A stretch of DNA of 22,223 nucleotides from a virus. Shown here piece by piece: positions 1 through 18,501 of the stretch. The translations under genes and the position numbers were made by a program. Below the pieces are notes generated by a model that was not told the origin of the DNA, did not search any database, and saw only the letters and a list, made by a program, of their open reading frames with translations. Positions within the stretch are counted from its first letter, which is position 1. Each line of letters starts with the position of its first letter. The stretch spans positions 1 to 22,223 of the IMG/VR virus record IMGVR_UViG_3300012954_000100; one strand, written 5' to 3'.

Positions 1-2219
1 AGCAGTGAACCTCGTACATGGATAGGTGTGCCCTTGCTGTAAATGGACAGATTACTCTTGTATTTGTCCAGATTGTTGCATGATCTTGGGAATGCAACAG
101 CAGCAGGGTCCATTTTCTTGAACTCACGACGCATTTTATCGATGTAATCGATCACATCGTCCTCAGTTTTGCTCATGATAATCTTCAAAGCGGACTTGAT
201 CATCTCTCGGCACGGTGCTGGAGTAGATGACTTGACTGCTTCAATGCCCATGATCTTGAGTTTGGGTTCAGCAAACCTCACACCCTCAATGTCCCATGCA
301 TTCAGGATATAACGCTTCTTAGCAGTCCAAATGCCACGTTCAGCGATAGTTTCTCGCTTCATGAACATCTTCTGCTCGTACGCATTTACGTACGTCGAAA
401 GTTCCTGATAGCATTTCGATATGTAGGGTTCAAATCGCTTCTCGCAGGCATCATTGATGAAGTCAACAATCCTCTCTTTAGAAACTTTTTGTACATCAAA
501 TACACTACTGACAAGTAGATCAAGACAGAGATAGATACTGTCAGTATCGGAAGCAATAACATAGTCGTGGTCCTCAGTTTTGAGCAGTTTGTTCAGGTAT
601 TGGTTCATCCGGTTCTCAATCCAGCGGATGCTGAACTGACCACCCAGAGTGATTGCCTCAGCGTTCTCTAATTTGTAGTACCGGAAGTAATTGTTGCCAA
701 TAGCACCATAAGCAGAGTTGAGTTGGATCTTTTTTGCCATCTGGATGTTGTTACACCTGGCAATTTCCTTCTCCAAGTCCTTGGTGGGGTTCTTTTCGTA
801 CTCCTTCTTTGCCTGGATCATCTTTTTCTTGAACACCACCCGCTCACTGTAGATTTTGTCCATCAATTTGGGCAAAAATCCACGTGTTTTGGTGGTGAAC
901 ATGGCACCATTGGGACACACGGTGGTGTCCTCCAGACCAGACAGGTCTACCTCCTCATTGAGAAGTTTATCGACACTGACAGAGGGATATCTCTCATCCA
1001 ACAGCGTCTCCGGAGAGATGTTGTACTGCATGATGAGGTGTGGATACAGTGAGTTCAAGTCAAAACTCACAACCCACTCATAAAGACCAGGTTTTGGTTC
1101 TTTTACGTAAGCACCAGCGTACTTTTCGTTCTTTACCTCGTCTGCCTTGGGTGGGATGACGATTCCTTTCTTCTTCAGGTCGTTGTAGATGATCATGTCC
1201 CACATCCGGACCTGATAAAACACGTCTGTGAAGTTCACCTTGGCGTCATATGCCATGGTGACAGCGAGTTCAATCAGTTTCATCTTCTCCTCAAGGGAGT
1301 CAACCAGTCTCACGTCCTGAATGTTGTATGAAACGAATTTCTGCCAGTCTTTAGAGTAAAACTCCTTGAAACTGTCATATTCAGAGTGATCTAACTTCTT
1401 CTCACCTAGTTCGACTTCACCAATGTAATCAAGTTTATAACTTTCTTGTGCTTTGTAGGTGAATTTCTTGTACAGATCAAGGTAATCAAGGACAGTGACG
1501 CCTGCAATGTCATAGATCTCACGCTCACGGTGCATGATGAACATCTCCTCGCCGGTCACGAGACCCCAGGGAGACATCTTCTTCATCGCTTTCGTACCAA
1601 GCACACGGTTGATGCGCTTACACAGGTACGGAATGTCGTACAACTGACAGTTCCACCCTGTTACCACATCAGGGGTGTCGCTTGCCCAGTAGTTGATGAA
1701 GTGCTGCAACAAATCATACTCATCGTTGCACTGCACATACTTCACCATAGGGTCGGTATTGTGATATTTGCCGACACCGAAGGTCAGAATCCTTTTAGTT
1801 GCATAATTCTGCAGAGTGATGCATAGCATCTCCTCATCACAGTTCTCAACTGTAGGGAATCCCTTCTCAGCAGACACCTCGATGTCGATGGTGACCACCT
1901 TCATCTTCTTGATGTCGAACTTGATCTCGTTCTCGGGGTACTTATCAGATATGTACTGGTAGACGTACCGATTGTTGCCGTAGATCTCGAAGTTCTCTAC
2001 ATCACCATGAGTTTTGTAAAACTCACGGCAATCCTTGACTGTTCCTGGTTGGATGCTCTGGACATACTTGCCATCCAGAGTCTTGAATTGGGTCTTCTTA
2101 CGTGATGGAACAAATAATGTTGGTTGGTAGCTCTCTCTAGTTTTGATCGGGCGACCGTTTTCATATCCACGAACCAGAAAGTCATTGCCGACCATCTGCA
2201 CGTTGGTGTAAAACCTCAT
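1..2219 (-). CDS. gp43: DNA polymerase gp43 (family B), 3' end cut by window edge
   Basis: Replicative DNA polymerase with 3'-5' proofreading exonuclease; it works with the clamp gp45 and the loader gp44/gp62. 739 residues are visible and the frame is open to the left edge, so the C-terminus (roughly the last 100 residues compared with T4's 898) is missing. Exo I shows D112 and E114, the same numbers as in T4 gp43. A TGWN..LYD stretch and YNIQDV fit Exo II and III. Polymerase motif A is DLNSLYPHLI (D387), motif B is KKIQLNSAYG (K496 to G505) and motif C is DTDS (558-561), so all catalytic acids are present. The ATG overlaps the stop of the Sm-like gene as ATGA, with no clear Shine-Dalgarno, which suggests translational coupling. 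Identification is essentially certain. Confidence 0.98.
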   Translation of the reverse strand, partial: MRFYTNVQMVGNDFLVRGYENGRPIKTRESYQPTLFVPSRKKTQFKTLDGKYVQSIQPGTVKDCREFYKTHGDVENFEIYGNNRYVYQYISDKYPENEIKFDIKKMKVVTIDIEVSAEKGFPTVENCDEEMLCITLQNYATKRILTFGVGKYHNTDPMVKYVQCNDEYDLLQHFINYWASDTPDVVTGWNCQLYDIPYLCKRINRVLGTKAMKKMSPWGLVTGEEMFIMHREREIYDIAGVTVLDYLDLYKKFTYKAQESYKLDYIGEVELGEKKLDHSEYDSFKEFYSKDWQKFVSYNIQDVRLVDSLEEKMKLIELAVTMAYDAKVNFTDVFYQVRMWDMIIYNDLKKKGIVIPPKADEVKNEKYAGAYVKEPKPGLYEWVVSFDLNSLYPHLIMQYNISPETLLDERYPSVSVDKLLNEEVDLSGLEDTTVCPNGAMFTTKTRGFLPKLMDKIYSERVVFKKKMIQAKKEYEKNPTKDLEKEIARCNNIQMAKKIQLNSAYGAIGNNYFRYYKLENAEAITLGGQFSIRWIENRMNQYLNKLLKTEDHDYVIASDTDSIYLCLDLLVSSVFDVQKVSKERIVDFINDACEKRFEPYISKCYQELSTYVNAYEQKMFMKRETIAERGIWTAKKRYILNAWDIEGVRFAEPKLKIMGIEAVKSSTPAPCREMIKSALKIIMSKTEDDVIDYIDKMRREFKKMDPAAVAFPRSCNNLDKYKSNLSIYSKGTPIHVRGSL

Positions 2220-2482
2220 TCAGCGGTGACCTGCTGGTATTTTTCGAGTTGGAACTTGTTAGGTTCGACTATGGTCAGAATACTATCAGAATGGATCATC
2301 ATTTCACTCTGTTCTGTGAACTCTGGCCATGATTCGTAAGTAATCTTGTCAATGTCACCCTCGTGGATGACGATTTTGAACGGTTTGACAAGTTTGCAGT
2401 CAGGTTCACCCAGTTCTGTGCTCACTTCTTCTACTCGTGAGATAAGAACCAGGTCATTTTTCAATACTAAGATCTGGATCAT
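2216..2482 (-). CDS. Sm-like small protein, linked to gp43
   Basis: 88 residues, function not established. The layout resembles a small Sm-like beta-barrel: an N-terminal strand pair (LVLKNDLVLIS), a CKLVKPFKI strand, a WPEFTEQSE stretch, then HSDSILTIVEP followed by a short helix ending near Y84. The same pattern (K/E-rich strand, P-x-x-I, W-P/M, D-x-I-[LI]-T-I-x-E, Y) recurs in the 146-residue protein at 18061-18501, so the two look like distant paralogues. It overlaps the nucleotidyltransferase-like gene upstream and gp43 downstream by ATGA at both ends. It is therefore probably translated in step with the polymerase. RNA binding is an inference from the fold, not shown by the sequence. 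Confidence 0.75.
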   Translation of the reverse strand: MIQILVLKNDLVLISRVEEVSTELGEPDCKLVKPFKIVIHEGDIDKITYESWPEFTEQSEMMIHSDSILTIVEPNKFQLEKYQQVTAE

Positions 2483-3219
2483 GGAAGAGATAGTCTCCTA
2501 TTTTTCAATTTTACCATGGATTGACGTATCTTATCAATATATCCAGAGTTTCTCAACTCTTTGAAGACAAGGTTCTCAAATCCATATTCGCCGTACTTAT
2601 CAAGCGAGGATGCACGTGCTGTGCGGAGTTTTTTGACGATTGACTTGAGTGCTTCAGGTTTTTCTGTCTGAATCAGGGTGTCAATCTTGTTCTTCAAGTT
2701 GTTCGTCTTCTTGGTGAGTTCAAATTCATCGATCTCACCCTCAAATTTCTGAGGTTCCTGCACCCATTTGTTCTTTAGAACGCTGTAGACGCCTTGACTT
2801 ACTTTTCTAGAGATACCAGGGCGTTCAATGTATGGTTCTACAGGTGCTCCGTAGACTTTGACATCGTGAGTCAGTTCCCACAACGTCTTCTTGTCCATAA
2901 AATAGTCCGAAATTAGTTCCGGATCGCATTTTGGTACAAGATCTGGGTTGATGACGAGGTGAACATCGATGTCACTGTACTGAGTGTAGTTGTAACCAGC
3001 GTTACCACCCAGCATCAGCACGTCTTGGATCGCAGAATCGTCTAAATCAACAAAATCTGCGAACGCTTTCGCGAAATTCATCAGTGCACGACGCACATCT
3101 GGTTTGAGTTTTGTCCCAATCCAGAACTTAGGGTTCAAATCATCCCTAAAACGCAAAGTCAGACCCGCAGTTTCCCGCAGATCTGATGCTTTGATGTGAT
3201 GAAGGACTCTATTGTACAC
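2479..3219 (-). CDS. Nucleotidyltransferase-fold (pol beta superfamily) protein
   Basis: 246 residues. The core LGGNAGYNYTQYSDIDVHLV (residues 70-89) is the pol beta/MNT nucleotidyltransferase signature: a Gly-Gly turn followed by the D83-x-D85 metal-binding pair. A third acid could be E128 or E132 in VEPYIE. The C-terminal third (about 165-246) is helical and Lys/Arg-rich, which could contact nucleic acid or a nucleotide. The family transfers NMP to proteins, RNA or small molecules; the substrate here is unknown. The only in-frame start after the preceding TAA is GTG at 3219, with no good Shine-Dalgarno. A CTAAATAA late-promoter-like octamer lies about 20 bases upstream. It overlaps the next gene by ATGA. 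Fold assignment is fairly safe; function is open. Confidence 0.85.
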   Translation of the reverse strand: MYNRVLHHIKASDLRETAGLTLRFRDDLNPKFWIGTKLKPDVRRALMNFAKAFADFVDLDDSAIQDVLMLGGNAGYNYTQYSDIDVHLVINPDLVPKCDPELISDYFMDKKTLWELTHDVKVYGAPVEPYIERPGISRKVSQGVYSVLKNKWVQEPQKFEGEIDEFELTKKTNNLKNKIDTLIQTEKPEALKSIVKKLRTARASSLDKYGEYGFENLVFKELRNSGYIDKIRQSMVKLKNRRLSLP

Positions 3220-3240: not shown

Positions 3241-3248
3241 TTATTTAG
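3241..3248 (-). promoter_or_regulatory. CTAAATAA late-promoter-like octamer
   Basis: The minus strand reads CTAAATAA, overlapping the hsp20 stop codon and about 20 bases upstream of the GTG of the nucleotidyltransferase-like gene. It is one mismatch from the T4 late -10 TATAAATA, and similar octamers sit at 12596, 13122 and 20952. Promoter activity is inferred only. Confidence 0.4.
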
Positions 3249-3673
3249 AGGTACTCTTTGCGGGCATGGTGATCAGGGACGACTTTCTTCAGAGTTACAA
3301 TCAAAAGTCCGTCCTCAAAGGTCACTGAGGAGATTTCTACGTCCTCACTTAGCGTCCATGCACGCTCAAAGTTACGGTTAGCAAGTCCGCGATGGATATA
3401 TTCTCCATCCGCTTCCTTTTCACGCTTGCCTTCGCAGACAAGTTTGCCGTACTCAGAGTAAACCTTGACTTCATCCTTCTTGAACCCCGCCAGTGCGATC
3501 TCTAGGCGTGTCTCGTGGTTACTGAGTTGGATAATGTTGTATGGAGGGTAGTTACCAACCGTGTTGGACTCCCAAAATTGATTGAATGTTGTGTCCCAAC
3601 CAAGGGCATTCTTATTGATACGGTCAATTAGGTCCGGCAGACCAGCTGCACGAAACTTCTCGATGTTAGACAT
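3245..3673 (-). CDS. hsp20: Small heat-shock protein Hsp20
   Basis: 142-residue alpha-crystallin-type chaperone that holds unfolding proteins, in phage presumably capsid or host proteins during infection. The alpha-crystallin domain spans about residues 43-132, including the RLEIALAGFKKDEVKV strand pair, GLANRNFERAWTL and the closing FEDGLLIVTL motif. The N-terminal arm (MSNIEKFRAAGLPDLIDRI) is short and amphipathic, and the C-terminal tail is brief (DHHARKEYL) with no clear IxI motif. The start is ATG, with CAGGAGA about 8 bases upstream. A T4-type late promoter TATAAATA and a hairpin leader precede it, so it appears to be expressed as a late gene independently of regA. Cyanomyoviruses commonly carry this gene. 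Confidence 0.95.
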   Translation of the reverse strand: MSNIEKFRAAGLPDLIDRINKNALGWDTTFNQFWESNTVGNYPPYNIIQLSNHETRLEIALAGFKKDEVKVYSEYGKLVCEGKREKEADGEYIHRGLANRNFERAWTLSEDVEISSVTFEDGLLIVTLKKVVPDHHARKEYL

Positions 3674-3772: not shown

Positions 3773-4207
3773 TCAGGACTCTGGTGCTCTCTTCTTACCA
3801 ATGTTGTACTTGGTCTCCAGTGACCACTCACCCTTCTCGCGGAAGGAGATAACTTTGATCTGATTGAGAGGAGAAACATCCAAGATTGCTTCTCTACCTT
3901 CGTCAGAAATGAGAATCAAACCCCAGTCAACCAGCAGGTTGACGATACGATTACGACGCTGTACGTCATTGATCGTCAGGTTTGCTCTCTTGCCGTCTAG
4001 AGCAAACAGTTCTTTGAAGTGAACGATGAAATACCGTCCCTGCTTATGCAGAATATGGCAGGACTGGTACAGTTTCTTTTCCTTCCGACTCGCTACACCA
4101 ATACGGGTAAGAGTCTCGCGTACTTTTAGAAAATCATCTGGTTCTTGAAGAACCACTTCGATCATTTTTTCAGGGGACCATTCGTAAATAGGTTCTCCGC
4201 CGTTCAT
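3773..4207 (-). CDS. regA: RegA translational repressor
   Basis: 144 residues. It binds ribosome-binding regions of early phage mRNAs and blocks their translation (in T4 these include the clamp, the clamp-loader and its own mRNA). The core is unmistakable: DDFLKVRETLTRIG, KLYQSCHILHKQGRYFIVHFKELF, LLVDWGLI and a C-terminal KVISFREKGEWSL..KYNIG. T4 RegA begins at the Met equivalent to M15 here (MIEVVLQEP). The longer start at 4207 is chosen because GGAGG sits 6 bases before it and it overlaps the gp62 stop as ATGA; M15 has no Shine-Dalgarno. This gives an extra 14 residues (MNGGEPIYEWSPEK) over T4. The last residues KKRAPES extend slightly past the T4 end. It is the second gene of a 62-regA pair. 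Confidence 0.95.
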   Translation of the reverse strand: MNGGEPIYEWSPEKMIEVVLQEPDDFLKVRETLTRIGVASRKEKKLYQSCHILHKQGRYFIVHFKELFALDGKRANLTINDVQRRNRIVNLLVDWGLILISDEGREAILDVSPLNQIKVISFREKGEWSLETKYNIGKKRAPES

Positions 4208-4587
4208 TGCAACCCTCCGGTCTCAAGTCGTTGTCTAATAATGTCTAACTGATCGTTAGATAAAAGAGGGAGCACTTGCTTCGCCTTTTCGTCAGAATAA
4301 CCGTAGTATTTTTTGACAATTTGGAGATTCACTAGCTCATCTTTCCGGACCCAGGGAGAGAATCTCTTCTTGGATCTCAGTGTATTTAGTAAAAAATCGT
4401 ATTGTAACTTATAATCAAGAGAATGATTGATATTCATCTCGTTTGCATACATCAACGAATCAATATGTCCGGACAGGCATCGGTTGACAATGTATGGGAG
4501 GTACTTGGATTCGAGTTGGGGGTCATCATCAATTAGATTGGTCTTACTCACGTTGATGGAGTTCAACCAATCGCTCAATTCAGGCAT
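4204..4587 (-). CDS. gp62: Clamp-loader small subunit gp62
   Basis: 127 residues. It is a non-ATPase subunit that joins the gp44 tetramer to load the gp45 ring at primer ends. Recognisable as gp62 from the start MPELSDWLNSINVSK and from YLPYIVNRCLSGHIDSLMYANEMN and LQYDFLLNTLRSKKRFSPW. It is much shorter than T4's 187 residues, as in other cyanophages. The open frame extends upstream to 4632, but those residues read back into the preceding small gene, so the ATG at 4587 (after GGAAAAAG) is chosen. It overlaps the small gene by 8 bases and regA by ATGA. It is separated from its partner gp44 by about 4 kb of accessory genes. Confidence 0.93.
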   Translation of the reverse strand: MPELSDWLNSINVSKTNLIDDDPQLESKYLPYIVNRCLSGHIDSLMYANEMNINHSLDYKLQYDFLLNTLRSKKRFSPWVRKDELVNLQIVKKYYGYSDEKAKQVLPLLSNDQLDIIRQRLETGGLQ

Positions 4588-4729
4588 TCTTTTTCCGAAT
4601 AATGATCTGGTCGTTCTTGTAGTCAGGAACAAATTCTAACTGGGCGTCATGTTCCCAGCACAGTTCTTCGTACAAACTGTTGAGGGTTGCCATGTCCTCC
4701 CAGAGGTCGGTGGGTTGGTTATCCATCAT
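4580..4729 (-). CDS. Small conserved-looking hypothetical, 49 aa
   Basis: Starts MMDNQPTDLWEDM and continues LNSLYEELCWEHDAQLEF before a charged end IIIRKKNA. It is acidic and Trp-rich, with no signal or membrane segment. The stop overlaps the gp62 start by 8 bases. Tandem ATGs at 4729 and 4726 are possible; an internal Met (MATLNSLYEE, 4693) has GGGAGG only 2 bases away. The amino-acid composition and the overlap with gp62 make it likely to be a real gene. Function unknown. Confidence 0.65.
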   Translation of the reverse strand: MMDNQPTDLWEDMATLNSLYEELCWEHDAQLEFVPDYKNDQIIIRKKNA

Positions 4730-6031: not shown

Positions 6032-6850
6032 CTAGTAATTCATAAGCAACAACTCCTTCCTGGTTGTTTGGTTTTTCATATATTCTCCAACTGATCTCAT
6101 GGTGTATGTGAGATCAAACTCTGCTGCTTTCCAGTTCTCAAATCGATCCTGGACTAATTGATCAGAGTTGTAACTGATGATGCAGTCGTTGCTGGACCAG
6201 GCACAGTCACGGGCAAACTTCTCGTGGTCAAACCCCTTGTGCATGTCACCCTTCTTGCCATACAGGTTGTCCTTGATGTCATAGGGAGGGTCAAGGTAGA
6301 CCAGAGCACCCTCTCCTTCCAACAACTTCTCGTAGGACTGGTGCAAGATGGTCCAGTTACGGATTAGTTTGGAGATTGTTGGCAGTCGCATGATGCTCCG
6401 TTCACTAAAGTTGGAGACGCTTGCCTGCTTGGAGAAAGAGCTTGACTCAGTGAGACCGCTAAAAGAGCACTTGTTGCTAACCCAAAAATAACGAGATCGA
6501 TCTTGGTCGGAGGTTGATTCCTCATTGAGTAGTCTCTTTGCTTCATTGAATAGTTCGCGGGCAGCATCGGGATTGTCGTACTGCCGCTTCAGTTTTAGTA
6601 GATCTTCTGCCATCTTCTCCCCGTCATCACGAAGATGGATCCAGAAGTTGACTAGGGGTTCGTAGAGATCGCTACAGACGATGGGGAGGGTGGGGTATTT
6701 TTGTGTGATGAAGATCGCCATTGATCCTCCACCCAGGAAACATTCACGATACTCCCGATAGTCAGACAGACGAGGAAGATGATTGTAAATTTGTGTTGTT
6801 GCACGTGATTTGCCGCCGGGATAACGAAGAGGAGTCTTGGCGAATGCCAT
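6032..6850 (-). CDS. dam: DNA adenine-N6 methyltransferase (D12 / Dam class)
   Basis: 272 residues. It transfers a methyl group from S-adenosylmethionine to adenine N6 in DNA. Motifs run in the alpha-class order: PLRYPGGKS near residue 10 (motif X), CFLGGGSMA near 38 (SAM-binding motif I) and VYLDPPYDI with catalytic DPPY at about 187-190 (motif IV). Length matches T4 Dam and DpnM-type enzymes (about 260-280), and GATC is the likely target by family. The ATG at 6850 shares its base with the upstream stop (TGATG); a TTG one codon earlier is less likely. It is immediately downstream of a candidate nuclease, which raises the question of a restriction-modification pair. Confidence 0.94.
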   Translation of the reverse strand: MAFAKTPLRYPGGKSRATTQIYNHLPRLSDYREYRECFLGGGSMAIFITQKYPTLPIVCSDLYEPLVNFWIHLRDDGEKMAEDLLKLKRQYDNPDAARELFNEAKRLLNEESTSDQDRSRYFWVSNKCSFSGLTESSSFSKQASVSNFSERSIMRLPTISKLIRNWTILHQSYEKLLEGEGALVYLDPPYDIKDNLYGKKGDMHKGFDHEKFARDCAWSSNDCIISYNSDQLVQDRFENWKAAEFDLTYTMRSVGEYMKNQTTRKELLLMNY

Positions 6851-7350
6851 CAAAGAATGTCTTGAAAGTTTTCCAGAAGTGCGTCTGCAGTTGTGGTTTT
6901 ACTAGAGGGAGTGACGTTCTCTGCCAACATAGTATAGTCCCCAGGTTCTAGTTTGAACTTGGCAGTAGGGGATGATGGGGTGTAATAGATACGCTTCTCA
7001 ACAGTATCCCAGTCGGTTACTGCGATAGACATTTTCTTAGTGTCCACCAGAAGCATGTAGTCGAAGGTCTTCTCTACGAATTTTACATCGTTTCGGAAGT
7101 TTTTCAACACAACACTCTTGGTGCTACCGTTCTTATTGAACATATTGAGAGTTCCTTTCATCTCGTAATTATGTTCAGCAGACTTGAAGTCCACCCCATC
7201 CATGTAATCACCAACGTAATCTAGTTGACCGTCACTCCACTTAGCGAATGAGTTTTCTTGCAACCAGGTACGAATTGTCTTGAACGCATTTGACTTCATT
7301 TGAGGAGTATTAGTTGCATCAACGCAACCAAAAAACTCCTCAAGATTCAT
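6850..7350 (-). CDS. Hypothetical, candidate PD-(D/E)XK nuclease next to Dam
   Basis: 166 residues, not firmly recognised. The middle holds DFKSAEHNYEMKG (residues 54-66), which could be a PD-(D/E)XK active site: D54, then E63-x-K65. It is followed by FDYMLLVDTKKMSIAVTDW, a strand-turn-strand typical after such a core. The N-terminus is helical (MKSNAFKTIRTWLQ). It is placed between a sugar epimerase and dam, sharing a base with the dam start. Two starts are possible: ATG at 7350 with ATGA overlap (chosen) and ATG at 7368 overlapping by 22 bases; neither has a Shine-Dalgarno. The nuclease idea rests on one motif and on context, so it is tentative. Confidence 0.7.
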   Translation of the reverse strand: MNLEEFFGCVDATNTPQMKSNAFKTIRTWLQENSFAKWSDGQLDYVGDYMDGVDFKSAEHNYEMKGTLNMFNKNGSTKSVVLKNFRNDVKFVEKTFDYMLLVDTKKMSIAVTDWDTVEKRIYYTPSSPTAKFKLEPGDYTMLAENVTPSSKTTTADALLENFQDIL

Positions 7351-8255
7351 ATTGTCAAAGTTGACCATAATTCAGATGTAAGTTGATCTTCTAAATTGAT
7401 CTTCGGTTCCCATCCTAGCATAGATTTTGCTTTTGTAATATCAGCAAGTGTTTCTCTTGCTTCACCTTTACGTTCTGGGATATACACTCTTTCTCCACCA
7501 ATCATGTCAGCAACTTGATTGATAGAGTAGTTAGTTCCTGTGCCGATGTTGATTGCTTCACAAGAAACATAGTTGTTCAAAGCACACATATTTGCTTCAA
7601 CCACGTCCTTGACATGGGTAAAGTCACGTCTCTGCTCACCATCACCAACGATGGTCATAGGTTCACCACGACGTTTTTGTTCTTGGAACAAACCAATAAC
7701 AGGTGCATACTGTCCCTTCAGTGGTTGGCGGGGACCGTAGACGTTGAAGTAACGGAGGGAGATCGTCCGCAAACCGTGCAGACGATAGTACATGTAGCAG
7801 AACTTCTCTGCGGATACCTTGCTTGCTGAATAGTGATTCAAACAATCAGTGGGCATGAACTCCCGAAGAGGAGGTTCGTTGTTCAAACCATACGAAGAAG
7901 AGGTAGAGGAATTGACAAACCTCCGTGCACCTACTTCTCGTGCCAGTTCCAGCATGTTGCATGTTCCCTCAACATTTGTGGTAACACAGTCGAAGGGATT
8001 CTTCATTGCAAGTTGAATCCGAGAGTGTGCTGCCAGGTGGAACACAGCCTCGACACCCTTGAAGATAGGGCGGCATGCTTCGATGTCACGAATGTCTTCG
8101 ATATGATTCTCTACGTCACTGTCGTACCAGTTGAAAGCATCATTCGCTTCTGCTGATTCGTTGTCAATGACTACAACTTCATGACCATCATGCAGCAGGC
8201 GAGAGACGACGTGGGATCCAATAAATCCAGCACCGCCTGTTACAAGACATTTCAT
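7347..8255 (-). CDS. NAD-dependent sugar-nucleotide epimerase/dehydratase
   Basis: 302-residue extended short-chain dehydrogenase. The Rossmann turn GGAGFIGSH (7-15), an acidic residue after strand 2 (VVVIDNE), FHLAAH, and the catalytic Y142-S-A-S-K146 with Ser/Thr around 117 are all present. ISLRYFNVYGPRQ and FTHVKDVVEA are the substrate-side signatures of UDP-glucose 4-epimerase-like and related GDP/dTDP-sugar enzymes. It would modify an NDP-sugar in the cytoplasm; exact substrate not determinable. ATG overlaps the 26-residue membrane peptide (ATGA) upstream and the candidate nuclease downstream. Cyanophages often carry such genes, probably for glycan or lipopolysaccharide changes. Confidence 0.92.
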   Translation of the reverse strand: MKCLVTGGAGFIGSHVVSRLLHDGHEVVVIDNESAEANDAFNWYDSDVENHIEDIRDIEACRPIFKGVEAVFHLAAHSRIQLAMKNPFDCVTTNVEGTCNMLELAREVGARRFVNSSTSSSYGLNNEPPLREFMPTDCLNHYSASKVSAEKFCYMYYRLHGLRTISLRYFNVYGPRQPLKGQYAPVIGLFQEQKRRGEPMTIVGDGEQRRDFTHVKDVVEANMCALNNYVSCEAINIGTGTNYSINQVADMIGGERVYIPERKGEARETLADITKAKSMLGWEPKINLEDQLTSELWSTLTI

Positions 8256-18060: not shown

Positions 18061-18501
18061 CTATAGAGTATCTTTAGAGGCATCCTCTGCCTTATAGAGT
18101 TCTTCAAAGGATTCTCTTGCTTTATCTACTGTATTGATAAACCCCATATCCTTAGTAAGTTCAGGATGCTCTCTACTGAACCCTGAAGCAATGATGTTCT
18201 TATAGGTATTGATTACGTCTTCGTCTTTGATTTCAGAGATAGTAATAATACGATCCATATCCACGATAAAGACATCTTCATCTGTCAACCTCATCCAAGG
18301 TTCAAACTTATATCCCATAGGAACTCCAGTTCCACCTCTAGAACGAATCTCTTCACAGATAATGGGATTATCAAAGATGATCTTGTCATCATCATCTGCA
18401 ATAACCATGACCATAGAGAGAATCTCCTCTCCAGAAACCAGCTTGACCGCTGCTATGAACTCGTCATACGGGTTATCAGAGCTTGATTTGAATGATGTCA
18501 T
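18061..18501 (-). CDS. Sm-like protein after uvsW, 146 aa
   Basis: The N-terminal half has an Sm-like beta pattern: AAVKLVSGEEILSMVMVIADDDDKIIF, then DNPIICEEI and a Gly-rich turn. FEPWMRLTDEDVFIVDMDRIITISEIK follows. Compared with the 88-residue protein at 2216-2482 it shares strand order, the W-P/M turn and a closing D-x-I-x-T-I-x-E. The C-terminal 50 residues are acidic and helical. The position after uvsW parallels T4 uvsW.1, but the sequence is different. ATG overlaps uvsW by 26 bases. It is transcribed before the gp55 promoter. RNA binding is possible but unproven. Confidence 0.78.
   Translation of the reverse strand: MTSFKSSSDNPYDEFIAAVKLVSGEEILSMVMVIADDDDKIIFDNPIICEEIRSRGGTGVPMGYKFEPWMRLTDEDVFIVDMDRIITISEIKDEDVINTYKNIIASGFSREHPELTKDMGFINTVDKARESFEELYKAEDASKDTL

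Follow-up and report, generated by a model that had tools for sequence, protein, structure and literature searches.

A Pol-β-superfamily nucleotidyltransferase encoded beside the DNA polymerase gene of a T4-like phage, and capsid-targeting-like prefixes among its relatives

The stretch of DNA analyzed here (the window; 22,223 nucleotides) comes from a marine T4-like phage; it is a 22-kb genome fragment, virus record G000. Six genes lie on its minus strand in the order gp62, regA, hsp20, NT, SM, gp43, where NT and SM are our abbreviations for a nucleotidyltransferase and an Sm-like protein.

4204..4632, minus strand: gp62, clamp-loader subunit (PHROG 225, E = 4e-43)
3773..4207, minus strand: regA, translational repressor (PF01818, E = 1e-45)
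3245..3673, minus strand: hsp20, upstream edge of the cargo slot discussed below (PF00011, E = 1e-14; PHROG 432)
2479..3219, minus strand: NT, Pol-β-superfamily nucleotidyltransferase, 246 aa, predicted GTG start (open reading frame, PHROG 36119, AlphaFold model, alignment)
2479..2482, minus strand: ATGA overlap of NT and SM (sequence; conserved in relatives)
2216..2482, minus strand: SM, Sm-like protein, 88 aa, DUF6561 / PHROG 483 (PF20198, AlphaFold model, PDB 3by7)
2216..2219, minus strand: ATGA overlap of SM and gp43 (sequence; conserved in relatives)
3..2219, minus strand: gp43 DNA polymerase, truncated at the contig end (tblastn)

By tblastn, gp43 matches the polymerases of cyanophages and marine single-cell viruses at 66 to 73%. 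In T4, gene 43 is directly preceded by regA, and NT and SM are both absent there; an earlier note on this DNA had already stated that neither gene has a T4 counterpart at this position, and its coordinates, strand and ATGA overlaps also agree with the sequence. Among the matches listed, the NT/SM overlap is 4 nt in 48 of 74 NT-SM-gp43 loci (−1 in 4 of 74) and the SM/gp43 overlap is 4 nt in 41 of 74; in the lineage of the window the NT/SM overlap is nearly always 4 nt. Conservation of the overlaps across these loci means that the chaining of the genes is conserved and not due to chance. Compared with relatives of ∼86 to 92% NT identity, pN/pS is 0.10 to 0.13 for NT and 0.14 to 0.20 for SM, so both genes encode proteins under strong purifying selection. 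Farther along the minus strand, as judged by eye, are an ORF resembling a Dam-type DNA methylase (6035-6853; RYPGGKS) and one resembling an NAD-dependent sugar epimerase (7350-8255; VTGGAGFIGSH).

NT gives a full-length profile match to PHROG 36119, an unnamed phage family (E = 1e-51; residues 13 through 245 of 246 aligned with 11 through 247 of 247), although the N-terminal prefix of the window clade is peculiar to it; all 61 aligned relatives match the same family. PF01909 (NTP_transf_2) is weak on the window protein (0.054) and is matched by 50 of the 61. The AlphaFold (AF2) model has a pLDDT of 91, falling below 50 for residues 1 through 9. Its palm is built on strands 64-70, 84-90 and 125-132, so that GG, DxD and E128 are positioned as they are in Pol-β enzymes, and its C-terminal region consists of four helices. 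Across the 61 relatives, with identities down to 26%, L28, G71, N77, S82, D83, D85, H87 and E128 are invariant, as are P156, R202, N216, L222 and R223 toward the C terminus. The acidic residues are encoded as follows.

2965..2973, minus strand: codons of D83, I84 and D85; the two metal-binding aspartates, D83 and D85, are invariant (61/61) and, in the model, sit on strand 84-90 or next to it
2836..2838, minus strand: codon of E128, the third acid, invariant (61/61) and within strand 125-132 of the model

A pol β-type assignment had been made from GGNAGYNYTQYSDIDVHLV and its residues D83 and D85, and it is borne out: the predicted structure contains the three-acid site, G71, D83, D85 and E128 are invariant, and the GG/GS turn, the DxD motif and the third acid all fall on the strands expected of the superfamily. 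Judged from this invariant site and the model, NT is predicted to be a catalytically intact Pol-β-type nucleotidyltransferase. Structure matches in the PDB comprise CD-NTase, AAD(9), MNT antitoxin and poly(A)/terminal-uridylyl transferases, all with E values of at least 1e-3; the best has E = 1.4e-3 with a TM score of ∼0.2 to 0.3, and with scores this poor the substrate is not readable from the fold. AAD(9)/AadA and the CD-NTases resemble NT in having a helical domain after a Pol-β palm that carries GG/GS-DxD, but their Foldseek matches to NT (E of 1e-3 or worse, TM ∼0.2 to 0.3) are poor and the sequence homology is confined to the palm; modification of an antibiotic in the manner of AAD(9)/AadA is implausible in a marine phage. 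A weak profile match of the C terminus to ICT1 (E = 0.022) was judged a chance helical match. Predicted viral proteins match the NT model with TM scores of up to 0.89, and several of them are much longer fusions. Among the NT loci gathered here, the NT domain is joined to a phage lysozyme (L144:5971-7503), to DUF5662 and an S-adenosylmethionine lyase (L169:5920-9738) or to DUF3008 (L170:781-2277).

SM matches PF20198 (DUF6561; E = 1e-26), and its AF2 model (pLDDT 87) superposes on PDB 3BY7 with a TM score of 0.87 at 1.6 Å, which upholds the earlier description of the small gene as Sm-like. By its title, 3BY7 is a protein with structural similarity to Sm/LSm-like RNA-binding proteins, and the entry holds five chains. 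Within the grouping of 3BY7, DUF6561 and PF16243 (Sm_like), SM shares the fold and gives a profile match at E = 7e-5, with only ∼20% identity. TIP60, which has a putative Sm-like protein as its five-fold component, matches this profile too. SM probably forms a small ring that binds RNA or protein. A second Sm family, PHROG 431, is often encoded directly upstream of SM, and the window holds a further paralog.

18061..18501, minus strand: Sm-like paralog, PHROG 471, beside a UvsW-like helicase ORF (PF16243 Sm_like, E = 1.4e-11; PDB 3by7, E = 1.6e-4)

The database label of PHROG 471, "methylamine utilization", is a mislabel of an Sm-like family. Several Sm-like paralogs are present in cyanophage genomes, and they often stand in tandem ahead of gp43 (L111, L112, L075, L083); our literature search found nothing on DUF6561, nor a relevant link between Sm-like proteins and cyanophages. 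It is possible, if on balance doubtful, that SM, as an RNA-binding ring of the Hfq/LSm type, acts with RegA to adjust how the replication operon is translated, independently of NT. The Sm fold of the model, the conserved placement of the gene just before gp43 at most SM-gp43 loci and the five-chain relative 3by7, along with the TIP60 match, are consistent with such a role, whereas the Sm paralogs elsewhere in the genome (18061-18501) speak against it.

The two genes differ in distribution. The NT loci, gathered among the matches listed, are those similar to the window or to Cr30-like sequences, so the proportions given for them are not unbiased. SM occurs in 106 phage records, all of them cyanophages or marine single-cell viruses, and NT in 45, including Caulobacter phage Cr30, Maribacter phages, Prevotella Lak phages and huge phages. 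Cultured cyanophages with NT include DSL-LC02, DSL-LC03 and S-CRM01. Some 100 cyanophages carry SM, mostly without NT, and many phages (Cr30-like, Maribacter, Lak, huge) carry NT without SM; SM is thus a separate and more widespread protein than NT and one of several Sm-like paralogs in these phages. The order NT-SM-gp43 is fixed only within the lineage of the window (NT identity from ∼59% up), and outside it NT and SM are non-adjacent: freshwater cyanophages have an extra Sm paralog between them, S-B68, S-H34 and S-CRM01 have NT near gp55/gp61 and far from gp43, and in Cr30-like phages NT adjoins gp43 and there is no SM. Co-conservation of the pair, as the earlier note envisaged it, therefore holds within the window lineage and fails beyond it. 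NT and SM are neighbors in one phage lineage, not an obligate pair, the latter being ruled out by their independent distributions.

Residence of NT beside gp43 is nevertheless old, as shown by NT-gp43 synteny that spans NT identities of 99 to 32% and gp43 identities of 99 to 40% (reaching Cr30 at 32%/40%) and by the correlated divergence of the two proteins (r = 0.92). The interval between hsp20 and gp43 also takes unrelated genes. SM runs straight into gp43 in the window, as had been noted, but in one sub-lineage a 1.4-kb gene for a B12-binding radical-SAM protein lies between them in overlapping frames (L051:6977-8383, L095:6973-8394, L101:6976-8430). Elsewhere the interval holds purM and a carbamoyltransferase gene (P-SSM2), tandem Sm paralogs (some phages) or, between NT and gp43, an ACP-like gene (PF00550; L061:1257-1523). 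Just upstream of NT, Cr30-like phages carry endolysins of unrelated GH19-like and M15/VanY-like types at the same position (L211:5387-5995, L266:2205-2813, L164:5488-5967 and, in Cr30, L080:2877-3512), a case of non-orthologous replacement at a single site. The hsp20-gp43 gap acts like a slot for cargo, where NT is a long-resident accessory gene. As this slot accepts unrelated cargo, a position beside gp43 is weak evidence for a role at the replisome, and the proposed coupling to the replisome is unsupported, given also the NTs that lie by gp55/gp61.

A different lead comes from the N termini. In the T4 capsid-targeting sequence (CTS), residues 4 and 7 drive targeting and residues 8 and 10 processing, and the gp21 protease cuts after [LI]xE (PMC9026906). 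T4 ipII and ipIII both begin MKTYQEFIAEA, and many NT relatives begin, from predicted starts, M[KRQ]x[FY]xx[FY][LIV]xE (e.g., MKTFSSYIKEALT, MKSFSSFITESLT and MKTYTGFFKESISF); they thus have in common with IPII/IPIII an N-terminal targeting pattern with [LI]xE, in phages with gp21 and gp23. The NT of Caulobacter phage Cr30 has the prefix MRKFSQLLED. Called by a strict regular expression for this short motif, a T4-type CTS (MKxFxxFIxE-like) is found, among the matches listed, in 24 of 112 dereplicated NTs against 18 of 1,597 neighboring ORFs, counts that are not independent since the NT sequences are related; shuffled N-termini gave 0.28 (NT) and 1.1 (other ORFs). Of 73 NTs, 52 have an [LI]xE in the N-terminal segment, as against 24% of background ORFs, again among the matches listed. 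On the NT tree the CTS has been gained or lost at least 13 times, and the sister of the window clade (L109, L111, L112) has a CTS. Both a gp21-type protease and gp23 are encoded on five of six large NT contigs, themselves fragments, two of them from the window clade, and gp23 is present in all eight contigs with a clear NT tag (L111, L202, L142, L146, L245, L255, L261, L199); in the CTS-matching lineage L156/L239, no gp23 was found in 62 to 84 kb. In T4, ipII and ipIII adjoin lysozyme e and nudE; NT has endolysin genes as neighbors elsewhere, and a NUDIX gene in Maribacter phages. Neighbors of NT in bacterial contigs, checked for structural genes, gave no informative PHROG match.

The window protein itself departs from this pattern. 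It begins MYNRVLHHIKASDLRE-T (predicted start), and the prefix of its clade, MYxRVLxHIxAxDLRE, has no aromatic residue at CTS positions 4 and 7, both of which are needed for targeting of the T4 internal head proteins. The pattern M-x-x-[FY]-x-x-[FY]-[IL]-x-E, matched by 24 of 112 relatives among the matches listed, is absent from it. The sole part kept is the LxE just before the NT core, which appears as LRE, LNE or IDE in distinct window-clade prefixes.

3172..3180, minus strand: codons of L14, R15 and E16, an LxE in the poorly ordered N terminus and a possible prohead-protease site

Two window-clade contigs, G001 and G002, encode a gp21-type protease (PF03420) and gp23 (the window being a fragment). 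The NT prefix occurs in no other ORF of these two contigs, where other ORFs carry a canonical CTS. Candidate packaged proteins of the window clade are ORFs with the T4-like targeting prefixes MKKFSTFITEAR, MKSFRDFFED and MKNFAEFMLE (L276:13737-14630, L276:16354-17313, L285:15544-16473, L286:10379-10888). With both aromatics missing, an unshared prefix and canonical tags on other ORFs, packaging is a proposal at the family level and a weak one here; for the window NT it is weakly indicated by the LxE site and the CTS-bearing sister clade.

The best explanation as a whole, to which we give a probability of about one half, is that NT is a host-modifying enzyme that in its relatives is often packaged in the phage head. 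The group transferred would probably be a nucleoside monophosphate and the acceptor an RNA or a macromolecule of the host; nucleotidylation of RNA or of some host target is the most likely activity. In many relatives a T4-type CTS would load NT into the prohead, the gp21 protease would clip it after [LI]xE, and the clipped enzyme would be injected along with the DNA in the way that T4 Alt is; translation shared with gp43 would reflect operon packing and not replisome function. Packaging and injection of the relatives are suggested by the enrichment of CTS-like prefixes and by gp21 and gp23 in the same contigs. The idea of a host-modifying enzyme, already voiced in the earlier note, is plausible, but on the grounds of these capsid-targeting-like prefixes and not of gp43 coupling. 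More tentative, and to our minds short of an even chance, is the fuller proposal that this large, unnamed family is packaged in heads of the T4 type by way of interchangeable CTSs and injected to nucleotidylate a host target early, the window clade having a divergent, still cleavable leader. Delivery of NT in the virion is an attractive hypothesis at the level of the family.

Rather unlikely is an enzyme that modifies a host protein by AMPylation or UMPylation (MNT-antitoxin-like or DrrA-like) for counter-defense or takeover as an early product of the gp43 operon, not injected. The window clade has no canonical CTS, PADLOC PDC-S09 matches 40 of 61 members, and both profiles and folds show similarity to MNT antitoxin and DrrA, but these last matches are weak and confined to the palm. 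MNT-type antitoxins, ∼100 aa long and paired with HEPN, have in common with NT a minimal nucleotidyltransferase palm; NT differs from the type VII (HEPN-MNT) antitoxin in being twice as long (246 aa), in its conserved helical C terminus and in its neighbors, which are hsp20 and an Sm-like gene with no HEPN partner, and it was rejected as a HEPN-MNT antitoxin.

Quite unlikely, and likewise at odds with delivery in the virion, is an unpackaged enzyme that is expressed alongside the replication genes and repairs or tails the ends of RNA or tRNA in the infected cell (terminal transferase, RlaP-like or CCA-like). Weak MTPAP-like palm matches in 28 of 61 members, weak matches to poly(A)/TUTase structures, strongly conserved basic residues in the helical C terminus (R202, K220, R223) and tRNA genes within 6 kb at 21 of 112 loci (among the matches listed) would fit such an enzyme. 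Searched up to E = 10, however, the window NT has no match to RNA-repair nucleotidyltransferase profiles (RlaP, CCA-adding), giving only the weak PF01909; no RNA ligase or kinase was identified among the annotated recurrent neighbor clusters, so that an RNA-repair cluster was rejected, and the tRNA proximity is unspecific, as most of the tRNAs are found away from gp43, in contexts where tRNA genes are common in T4-like phages. The model of the earlier note, in which NT and SM work as a pair tied to the replisome or to the translation of gp43, is highly improbable: ATGA overlaps conserved across the window clade and correlated NT, SM and gp43 identities favor it, against the many phages with NT or SM alone, the radical-SAM gene that separates SM from gp43 and the NTs by gp55/gp61.

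T4 injects the ADP-ribosyltransferase Alt together with CTS-tagged internal proteins, which serve in DNA defense and host takeover. Alt is a packaged host-modifying enzyme, whereas NT is a nucleotidyltransferase whose packaging is only predicted. In uncultured phages, candidates for injected proteins can be recognized by short N-terminal tags. The multiple Sm-like paralogs of cyanophages, of which at least one is mislabeled in databases, form another unstudied group. If aquatic T4-like phages inject nucleotidyltransferases as T4 injects Alt, this would be a new chemistry among injected phage enzymes; a widespread nucleotidyltransferase family would become testable and would be a counterpart of T4 Alt.
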